IMG/VR virus record: IMGVR_UViG_3300017742_000041
Location: 1-35,940 of that record
Direction: 5' to 3' (one strand)
DNA: 35,940 bases
From: a virus
Below the pieces are notes generated by a model. It worked only from the letters and a program-made list of their open reading frames with translations, did not search any database and was not told the origin of the DNA. The position numbers and the translations under genes are program-made. Positions 1 through 18,390 of the stretch are shown here, one piece after another; position 1 is the stretch's first letter; the number at the start of each line of letters is the position of its first letter.

Positions 1-62
1 ATAGACTTTTAAGATTTGCTTATAACTATGCAATGTCTGGAGAAGGTCTTAAGGTATTATAA
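1..62 (+). CDS. 3' end of an unidentified gene (partial)
   Basis: An open frame enters from the left edge and stops with a TAA at 60-62 that overlaps the next ATG by one base. The visible end reads RLLRFAYNYAMSGEGLKVL. The stop/start overlap is typical of the coupled genes that follow, which supports it being real coding sequence. Too little is visible to name it. Confidence 0.45.
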   Translation, partial: RLLRFAYNYAMSGEGLKVL

Positions 63-415
63 TGGGAATGATAAACGCTGTTAACTCTTTGCGCTATGAT
101 ATGCATGGTCGTAAAAGAAAGACTAGTAGTTTATCTAAGCCTAAAAAGTCTCATAGCTTCAAGACCTCCAGAAGTTATGAGACGCCTTCTAGGCCTTCTG
201 AGCCAGCTTATATGAGCGATTTAAGAAATCTTAAATCTAAGTTGCTACAACCTAAAGAAAGTGAAGAGCATAGATTAGAACGTATTAGAGAGGAAAAGGC
301 TTTTAAAGAAGAGAGATTAAAAATCTCTTCTAATTATGCAATAGCTCCGGCCTATAATAAAGGAGCGTATCAAGTGATACCTAAATCAGACTTAAAATAT
401 ATAGGAAAAAAATAA
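62..415 (+). CDS. Basic conserved hypothetical protein
   Basis: A 117-residue protein with no signal peptide or membrane segment. The first half is rich in Lys, Arg and Ser (for example KRKTSSLSKPKKSHSFKTSR) and probably disordered. A charged Glu/Arg/Lys stretch at about residues 65-85 could be helical. The C-terminus (NYAIAPAYNKGAYQVI) resembles a small conserved hypothetical protein of marine T4-like phages, as far as I recall; this is not verified. The ATG overlaps the upstream stop. The basic composition would suit nucleic-acid binding, but no function can be assigned. Confidence 0.7.
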   Translation: MGMINAVNSLRYDMHGRKRKTSSLSKPKKSHSFKTSRSYETPSRPSEPAYMSDLRNLKSKLLQPKESEEHRLERIREEKAFKEERLKISSNYAIAPAYNKGAYQVIPKSDLKYIGKK

Positions 416-417
416 TT

Positions 418-573
418 ATGAATTCAAAAGTACAAAAAAGTTATGAAAAGATGATGAAGTCATTTGATAAGCAAGATGAATCAGCTAATAGAGTGTTTAA
501 TGCAATCTATTTTTTATACGGTGCATTTACTATGGGCATAACAATTATGCTTATTGAGCTGCTTACTGCATAA
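418..573 (+). CDS. Small single-pass membrane protein
   Basis: A 51-residue ORF starts two bases after the preceding stop. Its N-terminal half is polar and charged (MNSKVQKSYEKMMKSFDKQD) and its C-terminal half is one hydrophobic segment (roughly residues 30-50, AIYFLYGAFTMGITIMLIEL). This would give a one-span protein. It fills the only space between its neighbours and shares their strand, supporting it as a gene. Its stop codon lies inside the late-promoter-like box of the next gene. Function unknown. Confidence 0.5.
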   Translation: MNSKVQKSYEKMMKSFDKQDESANRVFNAIYFLYGAFTMGITIMLIELLTA

Positions 574-576
574 ATA
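569..576 (+). promoter_or_regulatory. T4-type late promoter box (CATAAATA), leaderless geometry
   Basis: CATAAATA matches the T4-family late consensus TATAAATA (the N-ATAAATA form) and is followed by exactly five bases and the ATG at 582. In T4 late promoters this octamer sits at about -13 to -6, so transcription would start at the A of ATG. No Shine-Dalgarno sequence precedes this ATG. Confidence 0.5.
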
Positions 577-581
577 TTATT

Positions 582-1283
582 ATGGCTAATCATAATAGAA
601 AACAATTAAATGATACAGGGTATGTTATTTTAAGAGATATTGTACCGATTAAATTAATTGAAGATATTATAGACTTTTCTAATAAGAATTTAGATCAGTA
701 TGAGAATGATGATGAAGATATACTCTTTAAAACTCAATATAAGTGTTTTAATGCCGGTTTCTGCAATGATATACAAACTCATAATGGCATAAATAATCCA
801 TATGCAAAGATGCATGCTTTTCTTCTTGATTTAATGCAAGAAGAATTTGGATTAAGATTAATTCCTACCTTCCACTTTGGTAGAGTACATTTAAACGATA
901 CTCAAGGTATGAAGTGGCATGTAGATAGACTTGCTTGTGAGGTATCAGTTACAATGCCGTTTGCTTATTCAGGACCTCCATGGCCTGTCTGGCTTGAAGC
1001 GAAAAATGGTAAACAAAAAGTTGAGCTCAAGGTCTCTGATATATTAATTTATAAAGGGTGCGAGATTCCACATCATAGAGAACCATACAACAATGAGTAT
1101 GCTTTTCAACACTACTTTCATTATGTTGATGTAGAATCAGAAATAGGGTCGTTTGCTCAGTATTTTAATCCTAGTAACCAGAGTTACTGGCCTGGCAATA
1201 TAGATAGATTAATACTAGATAATAATTTACCTAATATCAGGGATAAAGAAAAAGAATTTTATAGGGAGAATATAAATGGTTAA
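582..1283 (+). CDS. 2-oxoglutarate/Fe(II)-dependent oxygenase-like protein
   Basis: A 233-residue cytoplasmic protein with the layout of a 2OG-Fe(II) dioxygenase. The N-terminal GYVILRDIVP resembles the opening of phytanoyl/prolyl hydroxylase-like enzymes. The HxD iron motif is H113-V-D115, with the distal histidine at H164 or H165 in CEIPHHREPY. Such enzymes couple 2-oxoglutarate decarboxylation to hydroxylation. The substrate cannot be told here. The 2OG-binding Arg expected after the distal His is not obvious (R166 is a candidate). The gene overlaps the next by eight bases. No Shine-Dalgarno site is visible, and a late-promoter box sits immediately upstream. Confidence 0.7.
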   Translation: MANHNRKQLNDTGYVILRDIVPIKLIEDIIDFSNKNLDQYENDDEDILFKTQYKCFNAGFCNDIQTHNGINNPYAKMHAFLLDLMQEEFGLRLIPTFHFGRVHLNDTQGMKWHVDRLACEVSVTMPFAYSGPPWPVWLEAKNGKQKVELKVSDILIYKGCEIPHHREPYNNEYAFQHYFHYVDVESEIGSFAQYFNPSNQSYWPGNIDRLILDNNLPNIRDKEKEFYRENING

Positions 1284-1659
1284 TGGTATAGAAGATTATA
1301 TAACTGACGACCCTTCTCTTGCAGATTATGCAATTGAAACATATAAGGTAACTACTGACTCTGAAGCGACCGAATCAGGTAAATGGCTATTATGGTCGGA
1401 AAATATCTTTGCAGAACCAGCTAGTGTAGAGTATTTTGATAGATCACTCTATACAAATATTGATATTGCATTTACTGAGCTAGATAGAATGACTGAGTAC
1501 GGTGAATTAGATAATCCTGAAGCTATTTTTGTTCTGTCTCAAGCTTTTAATACTGATAACCCTAAAGTGATTAGATTCTGGAAAAATAATAAATTATACA
1601 TTAATGGTATTGACTATACTCTTAATCCTCAAGGAAATCCAATACCCCGCTCATATTAA
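1276..1659 (+). CDS. Conserved-looking hypothetical protein between two oxygenases
   Basis: A 127-residue acidic protein (many Asp and Glu), with no signal peptide or membrane segment and no motif I recognise. The ATG follows a usable Shine-Dalgarno (AGGGAGA, about 5 bases upstream). It overlaps the previous gene by eight bases, and its TAA shares a base with the next ATG, so it is almost certainly translated with two oxygenases. It could be a partner of either, but only co-location supports that. Confidence 0.65.
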   Translation: MVNGIEDYITDDPSLADYAIETYKVTTDSEATESGKWLLWSENIFAEPASVEYFDRSLYTNIDIAFTELDRMTEYGELDNPEAIFVLSQAFNTDNPKVIRFWKNNKLYINGIDYTLNPQGNPIPRSY

Positions 1660-2204
1660 TGGCACAAGCATATCCTTTTTCTGCTGATTTTCCTATTAAT
1701 GATTTATTATTACCATATAAGCAGCAACTTATAGATGAATACTACCTAGCATTAAAAAATAGTAACGGTTCAGGTTACAGTAAAAGAATAACAATACAAA
1801 AAGTTTTAGATATAATAGAACCTTTATGGATAGATATTATAGATTACCACTTTAAACCTATTAATAGATCATTACCAGAATTTAAAGTATGGTTATACTC
1901 TCAAAATAATACTAACAATAGATCAGTATGGCATAATCACCCTGAAGCAGAGCTTAATTCAGTTTTTTATTTAGATATTCCTAAAGAAGGTGGTCAATTA
2001 CAAATGCTTAATGTTGATCCGGCTATTAATAAATTCAGAGAAGAAACAATAACGGTTCAAAATAATAAACTTTATATAATGCCGTTTTGGTGGTACCACA
2101 GGCCTCTCCCACAAAAGGATTCTAAAGAAAGATTATGTTTTAATATACAATACTATTCTAAAGACAGAATCAGACTAAAACAAAGAAATGGAATTAATTG
2201 GTAA
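1659..2204 (+). CDS. 2OG-Fe(II) oxygenase, phage 2OG-FeII_Oxy_5-like
   Basis: A 181-residue protein with the motif WHNHPEAELNSVFYLD (H92-N-H94-P-E96), which resembles the H-x-H-P...S-G-V-Y-Y-L signature of the 2OG-FeII_Oxy_5 family common in marine T4-like phages. The distal His is H147 in PFWWYHRPLP, and an Arg follows near the C-terminus. The double-stranded beta-helix core spans about residues 85-175. Substrate unknown; relatives have been proposed to hydroxylate proteins or nucleic acids. Start and previous stop overlap as TAATG. It is the last gene before a sigma70-type promoter, so it probably ends this expression unit. Confidence 0.75.
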   Translation: MAQAYPFSADFPINDLLLPYKQQLIDEYYLALKNSNGSGYSKRITIQKVLDIIEPLWIDIIDYHFKPINRSLPEFKVWLYSQNNTNNRSVWHNHPEAELNSVFYLDIPKEGGQLQMLNVDPAINKFREETITVQNNKLYIMPFWWYHRPLPQKDSKERLCFNIQYYSKDRIRLKQRNGINW

Positions 2205-2210
2205 AAGGAG

Positions 2211-2239
2211 TTGACCTCTTACGCTCTAGCGACTATAAT
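2211..2239 (+). promoter_or_regulatory. Consensus sigma70 promoter for the DUF932 gene
   Basis: TTGACC (2211-2216) and a perfect TATAAT (2234-2239) are separated by exactly 17 bases, and a transcript starting near 2246 would carry the AAGGAG ribosome site before the ATG at 2276. It sits in one of the few true intergenic gaps of the window, seven bases after a stop codon. This looks like a host-polymerase early promoter, distinct from the late NATAAATA boxes. Confidence 0.8.
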
Positions 2240-2275
2240 ATAGTTATAAATTAATTGACACAAAGGAGAAATATT

Positions 2276-3211
2276 ATGTCACATGAAGTTGAAACTATGG
2301 CCTACGCTGGAGAATTACCTTGGCACGGACTCGGACACGAAGTACCTGCTGATCTTTCGCCCCAGCAAATGATGGAAGCAGCTGAGCTAGATTGGTCAGT
2401 TGAAAAACAAACCCTTGTTACTTTAGAAGGTGCAGAAGTACCTGAAAAGAAAGCATTGGTTAGATCTTCTGATAATAAAGTATTAGATATTGTTGGTAAG
2501 AACTGGAACCCAGTTCAGAATATTGAAGCTTTTGAATTCTTTGACGACTTCGTCAGATCAGGAGACATGCAAATGCATACCGCTGGTTCACTTAAAGGTG
2601 GTCAGATAGTATGGGGTCTTGCTAAAGTAAATGACTCATTTGAGTTATTCGGTGGTGATAAAGTAGATTCATATTTACTATTTACTAACCCTCATAGATT
2701 TGGACAGTCTATTGATGTTAGATTTACACCTATACGAGTTGTTTGTAATAATACTTTAACTCTTTCATTAAGCCAAGAAGCTAATAATGTTGTTAAACTT
2801 AATCATAAAAAGCAATTTGACGCTGAAGAAGTAAAAAGAATGCTTGGTGTAGCCGAGTTTAAAATGAACCAGTATAAAGAAATGGCTCAGTTCTTAGGTA
2901 CTAAGGAATTTAAATTAGATAACGTTAGAGAATATTTTAACGATCTATTTCCTACTTACTCTAAGAAAGAGTCTGATGAGTTAGTAATATCTAGACCTGG
3001 TCAAAGGTTAGAAGAACTTCTTAACTCACAGCCTGGCGCTAATTATGCTCAAGGATCATGGTGGTCTGCTTTTAATGCAGTTACTTATTATACTGATCAT
3101 GAGAGAGGTAATGATGCTGATTCAAGACTACAAAGTGCTTGGTATGGTCAATCTAAAAACCTTAAGATTAAGGCATTAGAAAAGGCTTTAGAGTATGCAG
3201 AAGCAGCCTAA
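2276..3211 (+). CDS. DUF932 phage/plasmid-like protein
   Basis: A 311-residue protein beginning MSHEVETMAYAGELPWHGLG, the typical opening of DUF932 proteins (phage/plasmid-like family). The family is common in large phages and plasmids and its biochemical role is not established. The start at 2276 is chosen over an in-frame TTG 21 bases upstream because the latter overlaps the strong AAGGAG site that serves this ATG. The gene has its own consensus sigma70 promoter and is followed by an intrinsic terminator, so it can be expressed early and strongly as a one-gene unit. No membrane segment or signal peptide. Confidence 0.85.
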   Translation: MSHEVETMAYAGELPWHGLGHEVPADLSPQQMMEAAELDWSVEKQTLVTLEGAEVPEKKALVRSSDNKVLDIVGKNWNPVQNIEAFEFFDDFVRSGDMQMHTAGSLKGGQIVWGLAKVNDSFELFGGDKVDSYLLFTNPHRFGQSIDVRFTPIRVVCNNTLTLSLSQEANNVVKLNHKKQFDAEEVKRMLGVAEFKMNQYKEMAQFLGTKEFKLDNVREYFNDLFPTYSKKESDELVISRPGQRLEELLNSQPGANYAQGSWWSAFNAVTYYTDHERGNDADSRLQSAWYGQSKNLKIKALEKALEYAEAA

Positions 3212-3701
3212 TTGGTTATTATCTAAAGAGCTAAGGGATGCGGTTAATAGCCGCACCCCTTTTTATATTCCTAATGCTGTTCCTACTCTTAATTATAAGT
3301 GGGATGATGTTATTGAGCTAATCAATATGGATAAGCAGCTTACCAGGCATATGAAAGCAGGCGGCTTTTTAATTCATTTCTTAAACGATAAATTTCAAAA
3401 TATTGTTGATCTAGCAGATCAAATACAAAATATATTTCCATCACGTACTGGAGATATGTCAGTTCATCTATACGGTTCATTATCAAGAGAATCAGGATCA
3501 CATGGCAGACATAAAGATACAGCTAATGTATTTTTCATACAAGGATCAGGTAGAACTAAATTTGCATTTGATGATGGAAGCAGCTATAATTTATATAACG
3601 GGGATTTACTTTATATACCATGCGGTGTATATCATGACCCTGAACCTCAAGGAGCCAGATTCGGTTTCTCGATAGGATTAGAGGAAGGTAGATATGAATG
3701 A
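3195..3701 (+). CDS. Cupin/JmjC-like Fe(II) oxygenase
   Basis: A 168-residue protein with a cupin/JmjC-type metal site: H106-K-D108 in GRHKDTANVFFIQGSGRTKF, then H147 in DLLYIPCGVYHDPEP, followed by FGFSIGL as the closing strand. This resembles the core of ribosomal-oxygenase-like and small phage JmjC proteins. Substrate unknown. The ATG at 3195 overlaps the DUF932 gene by 17 bases and has no clear ribosome site. The terminator at 3234-3264 falls within its first codons. The N-terminal RTPFYIPNAVP looks genuinely protein-like, so a later start is less likely. Confidence 0.65.
   Translation: MQKQPNWLLSKELRDAVNSRTPFYIPNAVPTLNYKWDDVIELINMDKQLTRHMKAGGFLIHFLNDKFQNIVDLADQIQNIFPSRTGDMSVHLYGSLSRESGSHGRHKDTANVFFIQGSGRTKFAFDDGSSYNLYNGDLLYIPCGVYHDPEPQGARFGFSIGLEEGRYE
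3234..3264 (+). terminator. Intrinsic terminator inside the start of the next ORF
   Basis: Arms at 3234-3243 and 3251-3260 pair at nine of ten positions (core TGCGG/CCGCA plus AGGG/CCCT, one A-C mismatch) around a 7-base loop. A run of five T (3260-3264) follows. It lies 23 bases after the DUF932 stop but within codons 14-24 of the downstream cupin-like ORF. It would end early transcripts from the 2211 promoter. Confidence 0.75.
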
Positions 3702-3885
3702 ACTAACTGTAGGAATTATTTTAGGTATAGGTATGTTAGCCCAATACTTAGGTTATAGACAAGGGCATAAAGACGGAGCAGGTGCTATGTATGATATGCT
3801 CTACAGTCAAGGTAAGAGGGATGGTAAATTTGTTGTTATTAAACTTATTCAAGAACCAGGTGTAAATGATGGACGTAATTTTTGA
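3694..3885 (+). CDS. Small membrane-anchored protein
   Basis: A 63-residue protein with a short N-terminal hydrophobic segment (about residues 4-20, LTVGIILGIGMLAQYLGY) and a charged Gly/Lys/Asp-rich tail. It is preceded by a GAGGAAGG ribosome site and overlaps both neighbours by several bases. The repeated G-x-x-x-G pattern (YRQGHKDGAGAMYDM...QGKRDG) may be helical. No function can be assigned. Confidence 0.55.
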   Translation: MNELTVGIILGIGMLAQYLGYRQGHKDGAGAMYDMLYSQGKRDGKFVVIKLIQEPGVNDGRNF

Positions 3886-4303
3886 CGTAGATGGAACATT
3901 AATGGACTTAGATCATAGGCGTAAATTCCTAGACGGATCTATGGGTAGAAAAGATTGGAGTGGATTTGTAGATGCTACTAAAGATGATACTCCTAAAGAT
4001 CAGGTTCATTCAGTTGCTAAAGCGCTTGCAGCGCAGGGACATAAAATAGTTATTTTAACAGGTAGAAATCAAGCGCAGCATGACATAACTGCGTTACAAC
4101 TAAAAGATATTCCATATGATACTATGATAATGAGACCAGATGATAACTATGATGCTGATCAGGATTTAAAATCTGGTATGCTAGATCATCTCATTAGTTT
4201 AGGTTATAACCCTACTTTAGTTTTTGATGATAGAGATACAGTAGTAAATATGTGGAGAGATAGAGGGCTTATATGTTGTCAAGTAGCCCCAGGAGATTTT
4301 TAA
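3866..4303 (+). CDS. HAD-family polynucleotide 3'-phosphatase-like protein
   Basis: A 145-residue protein of the HAD superfamily. Motif I is FDVDGTL with D7 and D9 as nucleophile and acid/base, ILTGRN is motif II, and LVFDDRDTVVNMWRDRG near the C-terminus supplies the metal-binding acids. The ending QVAPGDF matches the end of the phosphatase domain of T4 PseT/Pnk (QVASGDF), as I remember it. T4 Pnk is a kinase-phosphatase fusion acting in nucleic-acid and tRNA repair. Here no kinase domain is attached. Either ATG of the ATGATG start could be used. The TAA overlaps the next ATG. Confidence 0.75.
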   Translation: MMDVIFDVDGTLMDLDHRRKFLDGSMGRKDWSGFVDATKDDTPKDQVHSVAKALAAQGHKIVILTGRNQAQHDITALQLKDIPYDTMIMRPDDNYDADQDLKSGMLDHLISLGYNPTLVFDDRDTVVNMWRDRGLICCQVAPGDF

Positions 4304-4560
4304 TGAGTCAATATGATGAAATAGTAGAAAGGCAAAGAGCTTTATTAGAAGCAGAGAAATGGGCATCAACAGTTAAATCAATACATGCTCATGCTTTTAA
4401 TTCAATGTGGTATGATACTAGAGGAGAAGACGGCTCTGTATTAGATATTGAGTACAATAATGGGGTTATAAAAAGAGAAATTAAAGAGACTGGAGAGGTA
4501 GTATTCTTTGGTCATGAACTAACCGGTGAAGCACTTTTAGATGCATACAGCAGGTCTTAG
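4303..4560 (+). CDS. Hypothetical protein downstream of the HAD phosphatase
   Basis: An 85-residue soluble protein (begins MSQYDEIVERQRALLEAEKW, helical at the N-terminus, then a beta-rich half with EDGSVLDIEYNNGVI). The start at 4303 is preferred because AGGAGA lies six bases upstream and the ATG overlaps the previous TAA (TAATG). An in-frame ATG at 4273 would lie inside the phosphatase gene without a ribosome site. No family recognised. The coupling suggests co-expression with the phosphatase. Confidence 0.65.
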   Translation: MSQYDEIVERQRALLEAEKWASTVKSIHAHAFNSMWYDTRGEDGSVLDIEYNNGVIKREIKETGEVVFFGHELTGEALLDAYSRS

Positions 4561-4565
4561 AGGTA

Positions 4566-4573
4566 TATAAATA
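4566..4573 (+). promoter_or_regulatory. Perfect T4 late promoter box (TATAAATA), leaderless geometry
   Basis: An exact TATAAATA followed by exactly five bases and the ATG at 4579. The nearest purine-rich ribosome-like sequence (AGAGG, 4559-4563) is about 15 bases away and would lie upstream of the predicted transcript start, so a message made here should be leaderless. Confidence 0.6.
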
Positions 4574-4578
4574 ATAAT

Positions 4579-5232
4579 ATGAATGTGATAAAATCTAAAG
4601 TATGTACTGTGGTCGATGGCATCTTTTCTGATGCTCAATTAGAACATATGGATAACTATTTTGCAAGCTACCCTTTCTGGGGACTTGGTTATGATATGCA
4701 AGAATATGGAGCTAAGTCTGCTACGTTATGTAAATCTCTTAAGTGGGAACAATGGGTAGGCTTTCATGGTATTATTCAAGATATAAATGATATAATGCAA
4801 AAAAGACTTTTAGAGCTGGATATTGAAACACCTTTATTCTCTAGAGCTTTAATGAATAATTTTAAGTTCGGTGACTCACCTATGTATCATAAAGATTCAC
4901 CTAATAATCCTAAAGGGTTAACTTATATGGTTTATCCTAATATGTGTTGGGATCATAACTGGGGTGGTGAAACTAAATTTGCAGATGAAGATCATAATGT
5001 AGTTGACTGTGTTAATCCTAAACCAGGTAGACTTGTTATTTTCCCTGGTAATGTTGATCATGCAGGAATAGCGCCTACTAAAATACACGAAGGTTATGGA
5101 CGATTTTCAATAGCGTATCAGGATCCGTTAGGGTTTCCTAAAAGTGAAGATCGTAAAACTGTTCAAGCCGAGGATATAGAAAATACTTCCTACGTATCTT
5201 TATATGGTGATGATTATAAAAGGCTTAATTAA
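4579..5232 (+). CDS. 2OG-Fe(II) oxygenase, prolyl-4-hydroxylase-like
   Basis: A 217-residue protein with a complete 2OG-Fe(II) active site. H104-K-D106 lies in SPMYHKDSPNNPKG, distal H161 in IFPGNVDHAGIAP, and the 2-oxoglutarate-binding R175 follows in YGRFSIAYQ. The intervening WGGETKFADE and NPKPGRLVIF are typical beta-helix turns of the P4H-like 2OG-FeII_Oxy families. Substrate unknown. It is one of five Fe(II) oxygenase-like genes in the window and, like the one at 582, sits directly behind a late promoter box with no ribosome site. The stop overlaps the next ATG. Confidence 0.8.
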   Translation: MNVIKSKVCTVVDGIFSDAQLEHMDNYFASYPFWGLGYDMQEYGAKSATLCKSLKWEQWVGFHGIIQDINDIMQKRLLELDIETPLFSRALMNNFKFGDSPMYHKDSPNNPKGLTYMVYPNMCWDHNWGGETKFADEDHNVVDCVNPKPGRLVIFPGNVDHAGIAPTKIHEGYGRFSIAYQDPLGFPKSEDRKTVQAEDIENTSYVSLYGDDYKRLN

Positions 5233-5363
5233 TGGATGAATTATCAAAGTTTAAAAATAAAAAAGTGAAACTAAATTTCTTTCAAAGAATATATAGAAAG
5301 TTATTAGTTAAATATAAATTATGGAGAATGAAAAAAAATGACCCTTTCATTTATGAAGATTGA
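5232..5363 (+). CDS. Very small basic protein
   Basis: A 43-residue ORF, very rich in Lys and Arg with aromatic residues (FQRIYRKLLVKYKLWRMKK) and an acidic end (FIYED). The ATG overlaps the previous TAA and its TGA overlaps the TTG start of the next gene, so it fits the coupled chain. The pattern could form an amphipathic helix. Too short for a family assignment; support is mainly positional. Confidence 0.4.
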   Translation: MDELSKFKNKKVKLNFFQRIYRKLLVKYKLWRMKKNDPFIYED

Positions 5364-6115
5364 TTTATTTTAATGGTTGCAGTTATACTTATGGAATAGG
5401 TACAGGTAGGCATGACACGTTGCAAATTTGCAGTAAGTATTGTTATCCTACAGTAGTTTCTAATAACTTAAATAAAGAAGTTATTAATGAAGCTGAGCCA
5501 GCTTCGTGTAACTTTAATATCTTTAGGAAAACAACTAAGTATTTAAGTTCTAATAATCCAGAAGCTGTAGTTATAATGTGGTCTGATCCGTTAAGGTTTG
5601 AACTTTTTAAACCTGAACTTTGGGATAACAGTGCTTTTGATTGTGGCATTAATCAAATTACTCCTCAAAATACGCAAAATATAAAAGATTATTATGTAAG
5701 AGAAGCACTTGAAGGATATTTTGGCTTTATTGCTAATGAATCTAAATTAGCATTAGATACTTTAACTATGATGGCTAATATACAATTACTTTGTGAAGCT
5801 AGAAATATACCTATTTTACAAATGCAATACAAATCTAATTTAGAAAGATATGTAAGACATAGTAAGGTTTTAGATACTGATGTAAGAGATAATAAATTAT
5901 TATTAGATAACATTAACTATTATATTGATTTTTTTGATACAAAAGATCATGTATATGGTTATAAACCTCAAGACATGCACTCATTTGAAACATTAAGAAA
6001 GGACAATAACTTACCTAACTCTTTATTTAGTATGGGGCATCCAGGAAGAGAAGCTCATAAATTTATGGGTGAATGGGTAAGTACATATTTTAAAGAAAAT
6101 GACTTTATTAGTTAA
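5360..6115 (+). CDS. SGNH/GDSL-hydrolase-like protein (first of a tandem pair)
   Basis: A 251-residue protein. The start IYFNGCSYTYG places a candidate nucleophile S8 in the block-I position of SGNH hydrolases, and SMGHPGREAHKFMGEW near the C-terminus matches the closing catalytic-His block. The middle VVIMWSDPLRFEL resembles the strand-plus-loop of the same fold. SGNH enzymes often remove or transfer acyl groups on glycans. The target is not visible. The only in-frame start before the motif is TTG at 5360, overlapping the previous stop. It shares motif order with the next gene and overlaps it by 17 bases, so the pair probably arose by duplication. Confidence 0.65.
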   Translation: MIYFNGCSYTYGIGTGRHDTLQICSKYCYPTVVSNNLNKEVINEAEPASCNFNIFRKTTKYLSSNNPEAVVIMWSDPLRFELFKPELWDNSAFDCGINQITPQNTQNIKDYYVREALEGYFGFIANESKLALDTLTMMANIQLLCEARNIPILQMQYKSNLERYVRHSKVLDTDVRDNKLLLDNINYYIDFFDTKDHVYGYKPQDMHSFETLRKDNNLPNSLFSMGHPGREAHKFMGEWVSTYFKENDFIS

Positions 6116-12490: not shown

Positions 12491-13219
12491 ATGATTAAAA
12501 AAATAGTATTTGGTATAGTTTTCATTATCATATGCTTATTAGCGTTTGCGTCTAATGCTGACGATAACGTTATATCATTAGAACAAACTGGCGACACCTT
12601 TCAACTTGGCGTAGATCAATATGGTTTTAATAATAATATAGAGATGCTTGATACTAATTCATATATTACAGCATCTAGTTTAGACATGTATTTAGTACAG
12701 ATTAATACAACCTCAGGCGGCCTTCCTAATAATATTACTTTTGATGAAGTAAGTGGTACTGGTAATCAAATGAAACTAGCGCAGGGTGCTGCATGGACTA
12801 CACTTGATTCAGATACTGATTTAACTTGGTGGGTAGATAATTATGAGAGTGGTGGTCATGATATAGATATTACTTTATATGGTGATTACAATAAATTAGC
12901 AGTTCAACAAACAAACCAAACAGGTGCATTAGATGGTCATAGCTTTGATTTGCATTTAGCTGGAGATTATAATGAGGTCCAAATAAAGCAGCAAAGTAAT
13001 GGTGCGAAAAATATTGACCTTACAATTTACAATGACTATAATGATGTATTCATTAGACAGAAAGGGAATGGCGCTACACACAATGCCAATATTACTCTTG
13101 ACGGGTTATATGGAACTGATTTAATTTTAAAGCAAATGAGTGGAACAAATCAAACATATACTTTAAGTGTCGACTGCATGACAGTTGGTGGATGTTCAAC
13201 ATCAGTAACTCAAGAGTAA
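12491..13219 (+). CDS. Curlin-like repeat protein 2 (candidate amyloid subunit)
   Basis: A 242-residue secreted protein. The signal peptide (KKIVFGIVFIIICLLAFASNA) precedes DDNVISLEQTGDTFQLGVDQ. That opening is nearly the same as in curlin 1 (S/A-DDN-x-I-x-x-EQTGDT-x-x-L-x-x-DQ-x-GF-x-N-x-I). Repeats are closer to classic curlin: ITLYGDYNKLAVQQTNQTG, LHLAGDYNEVQIKQQSNGA, LTIYNDYNDVFIRQKGNGA, then LYGTDLILKQMSGTNQ. Gln follows each strand, as in CsgA/CsgB. Two Cys lie near the C-terminus (DCMTVGGCS). GGAAG precedes the start, and the next gene, the cyclase, begins one base after the stop. Likely a second subunit, perhaps nucleator versus fibre. Confidence 0.75.
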   Translation: MIKKIVFGIVFIIICLLAFASNADDNVISLEQTGDTFQLGVDQYGFNNNIEMLDTNSYITASSLDMYLVQINTTSGGLPNNITFDEVSGTGNQMKLAQGAAWTTLDSDTDLTWWVDNYESGGHDIDITLYGDYNKLAVQQTNQTGALDGHSFDLHLAGDYNEVQIKQQSNGAKNIDLTIYNDYNDVFIRQKGNGATHNANITLDGLYGTDLILKQMSGTNQTYTLSVDCMTVGGCSTSVTQE

Positions 13220-18360: not shown

Positions 18361-18390
18361 GGGGCGGTATCATGCTGCCCCATTTTTTTG
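18361..18390 (+). terminator. Intrinsic terminator of the gene 32 operon
   Basis: GGGGCGG (18361-18367) pairs with CTGCCCC (18375-18381) (seven pairs, one G-T) over a TATCATG loop, followed by A and seven T (18383-18389). It lies 15 bases after the gp32 stop. On the other strand no T-run follows, so it acts only in the plus direction. Confidence 0.9.

Follow-up and report, generated by a model that had tools for sequence, protein, structure and literature searches.

An intrinsic-terminator-like hairpin conserved inside the first codons of a phage oxygenase gene that follows DUF932

Results

The hairpin lies inside the gene downstream of DUF932

The window, which is the whole stretch of DNA analyzed here, is a record of 35,940 bases from a marine virus of bacteria, and it contains T4-like genes for a gp32-type single-strand binding protein, the tail tube, the baseplate wedge and the baseplate hub. 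The features of the locus under study are listed in Table 1. The 3' end of a DUF932 gene overlaps by 17 nt with the ORF of a putative oxygenase; three further overlapping ORFs lie behind it and would share a readthrough transcript with the oxygenase. The ribosome site and the DUF932 gene that a preliminary description had read from this DNA were both recovered.

Table 1. Positions of the features at the DUF932 locus and of a comparable hairpin in other contigs
Feature	Position	Strand	Evidence or remark
Sigma-70-like promoter TTGACC-17-TATAAT	2211-2239	+	11/12 positions match; enrichment before DUF932 relatives
Shine-Dalgarno sequence AAAGGAG	2262-2268	+	7 nt 5' of ATG 2276; read from sequence
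DUF932 gene, 311 aa	2276-3211	+	PF06067, E 1.3e-42; phrog_1221, E 6e-66
JmjC/cupin-type oxygenase gene, 168 aa	3195-3701	+	PF08007, E 5e-10; L16 arginine hydroxylase profile matches
Intrinsic-terminator-like hairpin and T run	3233-3264	+	Oxygenase codons 13-24 (stem 13-23); loop is codon 18
Further overlapping ORFs	3694-3885, 3866-4303, 4273-4560	+	Each overlaps the preceding ORF (8, 20 and 31 nt, from the ORF list)
Hairpin in lipoprotein-like ORF	L186:2985-3050, L176:1713-1776, L178:3788-3851		L176 and L178 by alignment

The DUF932 protein (P0001) matched PF06067 with 146.5 bits against a gathering threshold of 23, and its predicted structure had a pLDDT of 85 and a pTM of 0.81. Since a Foldseek search of this model against the PDB gave no match at E <= 0.001 and the sequence profile reached only one chain (E 0.098), we claim no function for DUF932. 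The oxygenase matched PF08007 (JmjC_2) with 39.4 bits against a gathering threshold of 22, although only profile positions 89-121 of 127 were covered. A profile built from five relatives matched ribosomal L16 arginine hydroxylase chains (best E 3.8e-6), and residues H106, D108, H147 and R155 were invariant in five oxygenase sequences. We take H106, D108 and H147 to be the HxD...H metal site of JmjC_2. The protein thus resembles the L16 arginine hydroxylases and JmjC_2 cupin oxygenases in its profile match and these invariant residues, but it is much shorter than the matched hydroxylase chains (168 versus 373-407 aa). Putative iron oxygenases also cluster around DUF932 in the window (ORFs 582-1283, 1659-2204, 3195-3701 and 4579-5232); three of the four have Pfam 2OG-Fe(II) or JmjC matches, and ORF 582-1283 matches a phage family labelled ferrochelatase.

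The stem of the hairpin occupies positions 3233-3261 and is followed by TTTTT at 3260-3264, the first two T residues of which pair in the extended stem. Its fold energy was -16.8 kcal/mol (z -3.9), which was equalled by 1 of 200 shuffles, and under one fixed rule it was the strongest terminator-like site on both strands of the window. At the sequence level, the region therefore has the stable G+C-rich stem-loop and the U run directly after the stem that characterize intrinsic terminators. The preliminary description had placed the hairpin within codons 14-24 of the oxygenase gene; we found that the embedding is correct and that the stem is shifted by one codon. In the window, the hairpin begins 21 nt after the DUF932 stop and 38 nt after the oxygenase ATG, distances that would allow a ribosome-controlled attenuator of the pyrBI or trp kind. 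Because the promoter of a full-length oxygenase transcript must precede ATG 3195, every such transcript passes the hairpin; the preliminary description had proposed expression by readthrough or antitermination unless a later start is used.

Conservation and covariation of the embedded hairpin

DUF932 was found directly before the oxygenase gene in at least eight contigs including the window, which comprise seven distinct sequences and five lineages (the window group, L012, L011, L009 and L092). Among the matches listed, the hairpin was present at the same codons in all seven distinct sequences, with the loop on codon 18 in six of them, and the predicted oxygenase start codon lay upstream of the hairpin in all five lineages. 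The T run was kept no more than 2 nt from the stem in four lineages, and it was broken in L012 (CTCTTTAT). In the six sequences that were measured, the distance to the first base of the hairpin was 32-38 nt from the oxygenase ATG and 20-35 nt from the DUF932 stop, the latter gap being 20 nt in L012, 31 nt in L011, 35 nt in L009 and 32 nt in L092.

Covariation was assessed in an alignment of six sequences (the window, L006, L012, L011, L009 and L092), with 500 shuffles and slid controls for comparison. For seven of the 13 stem pairs, at least one sequence had both partners replaced, a number reached by 3 of the 500 shuffles; because this small set includes sequences close to one another, it counts few independent events. 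The proportion of paired cells was 85.9% (0/500 shuffles), measured on the window's own fold, which favours the window on this quantity. The covariation score was 0.467 (0/500 shuffles; slid controls at most 0.174), and all three measures exceeded the slid controls. A fourth measure, the number of further pair types, was weaker, with 20 of the 500 shuffles reaching the native value. RNAalifold, run unaided, recovered 10 of the 13 pairs, five of which had double changes.

The codons of the stem face each other in the order 17/19, 16/20, 15/21 and 14/22. Ala16 is encoded by GCG and pairs with Arg20 CGC in the window, L006, L012 and L011, and it is encoded by GCC and pairs with Gly20 GGC in L009 and L092. 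A silent choice at codon 16 thus accompanies a residue change at codon 20, and this swap may be a single event. When the residues were fixed and the codons redrawn synonymously (2000 draws per sequence), no draw reached the native fold energy in the window, L006, L012, L011 or L092, and four did so in L009. Under the terminator rule, no redraw was as good as the native sequence in five of the sequences; in L012 there were at least 4 of 2000, a lower bound since draws far above the native energy were excluded.

The hairpin accompanies DUF932 rather than the oxygenase

DUF932 relatives were taken from IMG/VR and GTDB contigs, in lists of at most 80 matches, and from the Melnitz record; the locus lists of the analysis comprised the best 80 of 150, 80 of 84 and 80 of 177 matches. 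Of 51 representatives below 90% identity, 50 were usable, one DUF932 stop having been dropped by the ORF caller or the flank rule, and sites of -12 kcal/mol or better were counted as terminator-like. Among the matches listed, such a site followed the stop of 20 of the 50 DUF932 genes versus 7 of 218 other ORFs at the same loci, and in an enlarged set it followed 27 of 83 DUF932 stops versus 15 of 305 other ORF stops. In L010 and the L207 group, where no oxygenase adjoins DUF932, the gene is followed after 19-22 nt by a strong hairpin that is intergenic and has a T-rich run behind its stem. In L168, which is 66% identical, no strong terminator was found after DUF932, and a strong terminator in this position is accordingly common but not universal.

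Among the matches listed, none of 22 distinct oxygenase relatives without an adjacent DUF932 had a terminator-like site. This set required a model start of at most 36, a distinct sequence and enough flank; the alignment begins at model position 13 or before in only five of them (L090, L091, L094, L100 and L101), the remainder were placed by extrapolation, and the set contains some near-duplicates. In L090, related neighbours surround a 40% identical oxygenase gene with the same N-terminal segment, and both DUF932 and the hairpin are absent. Because, among the matches listed, the hairpin is missing where DUF932 is missing and is present after DUF932 in L010 and the L207 group, where no such oxygenase is adjacent, we rejected the view that it is a property of the oxygenase family and assign it to DUF932; position, enrichment and comparative linkage support its being the terminator of that gene.

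The embedding as such was not peculiar to DUF932. Among the matches listed, 6 of the 27 terminator-like sites after DUF932 lay within the following ORF, compared with 3 of 15 after control genes, which suggests that embedding is not rare in these compact genomes. The new part in these sequences is the conservation at the same codons together with covariation.

Two further kinds of hairpin were observed near DUF932. In 12 sequences (L053, L049, L052, L046, L054, L058, L050, L066, L064, L197, L068 and L070), a covarying hairpin lies approximately 20-45 nt past the DUF932 stop, within a small ORF of membrane type that surrounds this stop. Three of its eight pairs were changed on both sides across the 12 sequences, its tail is T-poor without a good T run, and it is possibly a second, different embedded RNA element. 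In other contigs, a hairpin GCGGGGCT...AGCCTCGC, then CGTTTT, falls within the codons for a lipoprotein-like signal peptide in the gene that follows DUF932 (Table 1).

Promoter and upstream side of the DUF932 unit

The promoter named in the preliminary description is present, and its function is predicted from its sequence. A single match of this kind is not significant here, as the AT-rich stretch 1-6000 contained 26 promoter-like sites versus 29.5 expected. In the whole window, TTGAC-N18-TATAAT with at most one mismatch was found 11 times versus 2.6 expected, a count that none of 100 shuffles reached. Among the matches listed, good sigma-70-like sites were found upstream of 23 of 46 DUF932 genes versus 24 of 197 other ORFs, and 21 of the 23 begin 61-76 nt upstream of the start codon; the 46 are those of the 51 representatives that aligned from residue 1 and had 130 nt upstream. 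No promoter-like site precedes DUF932 in L009, one of the embedded lineages (score 0), and the score was only 7 in L010 and L207. The DUF932 gene is thus repeatedly, though not universally, accompanied by its own promoter and terminator, both identified by sequence.

No terminator-like site was found on the + strand between the end of the upstream ORF (2204) and the promoter in a scan of positions 1-6000, so upstream transcripts can enter DUF932. The one-gene unit of the preliminary description therefore stands in its promoter, ribosome site, gene and 3' terminator-like site, and it is closed only on its 3' side, the 5' side being open. The expectation that DUF932 is expressed early is not secure, because a late-promoter-like TATAAAT lies at 2245-2251, downstream of the -10 box and upstream of the ribosome site of DUF932. 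Such motifs were tried as a guide to timing and proved uninformative in the window, since both forms were below their expected counts (TATAAATA, 4 versus 11.3; TATAAAT, 20 versus 32.3).

Two other promoter-like sites were observed. TTTGCA-18-TATAAT (10/12) at 3561-3590, inside the oxygenase gene, is of a kind found at chance level here and could serve the genes overlapping behind the oxygenase independently of readthrough. A second exact match to TTGAC-N18-TATAAT, TTGACC...GACTATAAT, lies at 13014-13042 in the 3' end of ORF 12491-13219, approximately 180 nt before ORF 13221.

Discussion

A leaky terminator embedded in frame is the preferred reading

The observations on the hairpin are its sequence, in-frame embedding, conservation, covariation and linkage to DUF932. 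We consider it probable, at roughly 75%, that positions 3233-3264 are an embedded and leaky terminator of the DUF932 unit in which both messages are kept by selection. The intrinsic terminator of the preliminary description agrees with the fold energy, the rank of the site in the window, the T run and the linkage to DUF932, and a genuine, leaky intrinsic terminator is the most likely identity of the hairpin; termination itself, its efficiency, the readthrough ratio and selection as the cause of conservation are what we infer from these data. Transcription of the unit would start at the promoter at 2211-2239, and most polymerases would stop at 3260-3264. A fraction would read through into the oxygenase gene and the overlapping genes behind it, and this leakage would set the ratio of DUF932 to the downstream cluster. 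The terminator would occupy part of the first 23 codons of the oxygenase gene, in their reading frame, and selection would keep both messages, such that a differing stem base often comes with a differing partner even where this changes the amino acid (Arg20/Gly20).

Translation may contribute to the leakage. According to the available text of Li and colleagues, translation lowered the efficiency of a terminator 30 bp past a start codon in E. coli by only about 10%, ribosomes repressed terminators very close after a stop codon, and efficiency was maximal beyond approximately 27-30 nt from the stop, although the host of the window virus may differ (PMC4824070). The gap of 21 nt in the window (20 nt in L012) is shorter than this range, so translation of DUF932 may weaken the terminator; an intermediate gap of this size is compatible with leakage that depends on translation in the window's clade. 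The gaps in L011, L009 and L092 (31, 35 and 32 nt) lie beyond the E. coli range.

On this possibility rests a bolder reading, which we regard as unlikely: the hairpin would act as a translation-sensing valve that is held open by a ribosome finishing DUF932 shortly behind the polymerase or by one starting the oxygenase. If so, the rate of DUF932 translation would set transcription of the oxygenase cluster, and terminated messages would end inside an ORF as non-stop messages, giving a use to the tmRNA genes of some related phages. The available text of the Melnitz paper gives tmRNA genes in 17 of the 47 contigs of the Melnitz cluster (PMC9004378). The window and seven related stretches, all of them fragments, yielded no tmRNA.

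Alternative explanations

A conserved RNA element with another job is improbable but survives best among the alternatives. The hairpin would then protect or set the 3' end of a DUF932 message produced by processing, or it would slow oxygenase translation, without terminating transcription. The T-poor tail of the covarying hairpin in the small ORF of 12 sequences speaks for such a role and indicates that a hairpin behind DUF932 need not be a classical terminator, and the tail in L012 is T-poor as well. On the other hand, a T run is retained at most 2 nt from the stem in four of the five lineages with the oxygenase, and the stem with a T-rich run recurs in L010 and L207, where DUF932 stands without the oxygenase.

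It is still less probable that a phage antitermination factor controls readthrough and switches the oxygenase cluster on later. This arrangement would suit a hairpin that all full-length oxygenase transcripts cross, with overlapping genes behind it, but simple leakage accounts for the same layout.

The preliminary description had also allowed that the oxygenase uses a later start, in which case the hairpin would be an ordinary intergenic terminator beside a miscalled start. In cyanophages Syn30 and S-P4, a related gene is indeed annotated from a later ATG, past a hairpin. In the window, no ATG, GTG or TTG occurs in frame between codon 1 and Met45, the next in-frame start, which lies past the conserved W36. 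Residues W7, L13 and A16 are invariant in five sequences, the oxygenase start is at most 17 nt from the end of the DUF932 stop in all five lineages, and L090, L091, L094 and L100, which have no DUF932, align over the same N-terminal segment (model start 5-13). This shared segment is more likely to be part of the enzyme than a 3' untranslated region that is read in. The comparison with homologues suggested in the preliminary description thus places their starts before the hairpin and not downstream of it, and we rejected the later start as very improbable.

The least probable reading, that the AT-rich genome, in coding the peptide L..AV.SRTPFF, yields the hairpin as a by-product lacking any RNA function, can point to the conservation of this peptide at the protein level and to the terminator-like sites inside ORFs after control genes (3/15), but it was rejected because the stem differences are compensated even where residue 20 changes, only 0-4 of 2000 synonymous redraws reach the native energy, and, among the matches listed, 0 of 22 family members without an adjacent DUF932 have the hairpin.

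Comparison with known systems

The embedded, leaky terminator that we prefer is similar to the E. coli tR2 construct W48 and the pyrBI leader as described in the available text of PMC4824070, in which a hairpin with a U run also lies within an ORF, tens of nucleotides past its start codon. The geometry of W48 is nearly equal to that of the window (30 bp versus 38 nt), and both sites lie downstream of a translated gene. The known cases are an engineered construct or a short leader peptide, whereas in the window the stem is formed by conserved codons of a full-length enzyme gene and covaries in five phage lineages.

The window DUF932 gene also invites comparison with autonomous, moron-type gene cassettes. 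Such cassettes in phage genomes have their own promoter and their own terminator. At the sequence level, DUF932 is similar to them in standing between other genes with its own promoter-like and terminator-like sites, but its terminator is shared with the coding region of the next gene and there is no terminator on the 5' side. L090 has a related gene order without DUF932 and also lacks ORF 1659-2204, so the two gene orders differ by more than DUF932 alone, and DUF932 is at most a candidate single-gene insertion.

The nearest named DUF932 in the phage collection is that of Methylophilales phage Melnitz (MZ577097), with 58% amino acid identity. It is likewise preceded by a sigma-70-like site but is followed by only a weak hairpin (-7.6 kcal/mol) and by another gene. 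As far as the available text of the Melnitz paper goes, predicted terminators were kept only if they were intergenic or lay within a 10-bp overlap of an ORF start or end (PMC9004378). A filter of this kind would miss a site like the window hairpin, and such filtering may be one reason why embedded sites go unreported. In the titles and abstracts of the open-access literature, from which subscription journals are largely missing, we found no conserved, covarying terminator inside a phage ORF and no mention of DUF932.

If the hairpin works as proposed, it would represent naturally occurring dual coding: the same bases would carry a terminator and an enzyme N-terminus, and compensatory change would preserve both. 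Annotation filters that admit intergenic sites only, like the one applied to Melnitz, would discard such sites, so that operon boundaries may go unnoticed in compact phage genomes. The relatives with and without DUF932 form matched pairs that could serve as a test system for the effects of translation on natural intrinsic termination.

Minor observations

In Syn30 (L080:1465-1620) and S-P4 (L081), the hairpin is GGGAGTA-GAAA-TACTCCC behind CobS, within an open frame upstream of the annotated start of the related oxygenase-like gene. We regard it, together with the hairpins of the lipoprotein-like and small membrane-type ORFs, as a lead outside the main claim. A tRNA was the only Rfam match at gathering thresholds, and an ordinary terminator-like hairpin with a T-rich tail lies at window positions 18361-18381, between the gp32-like gene and tRNA-Arg.
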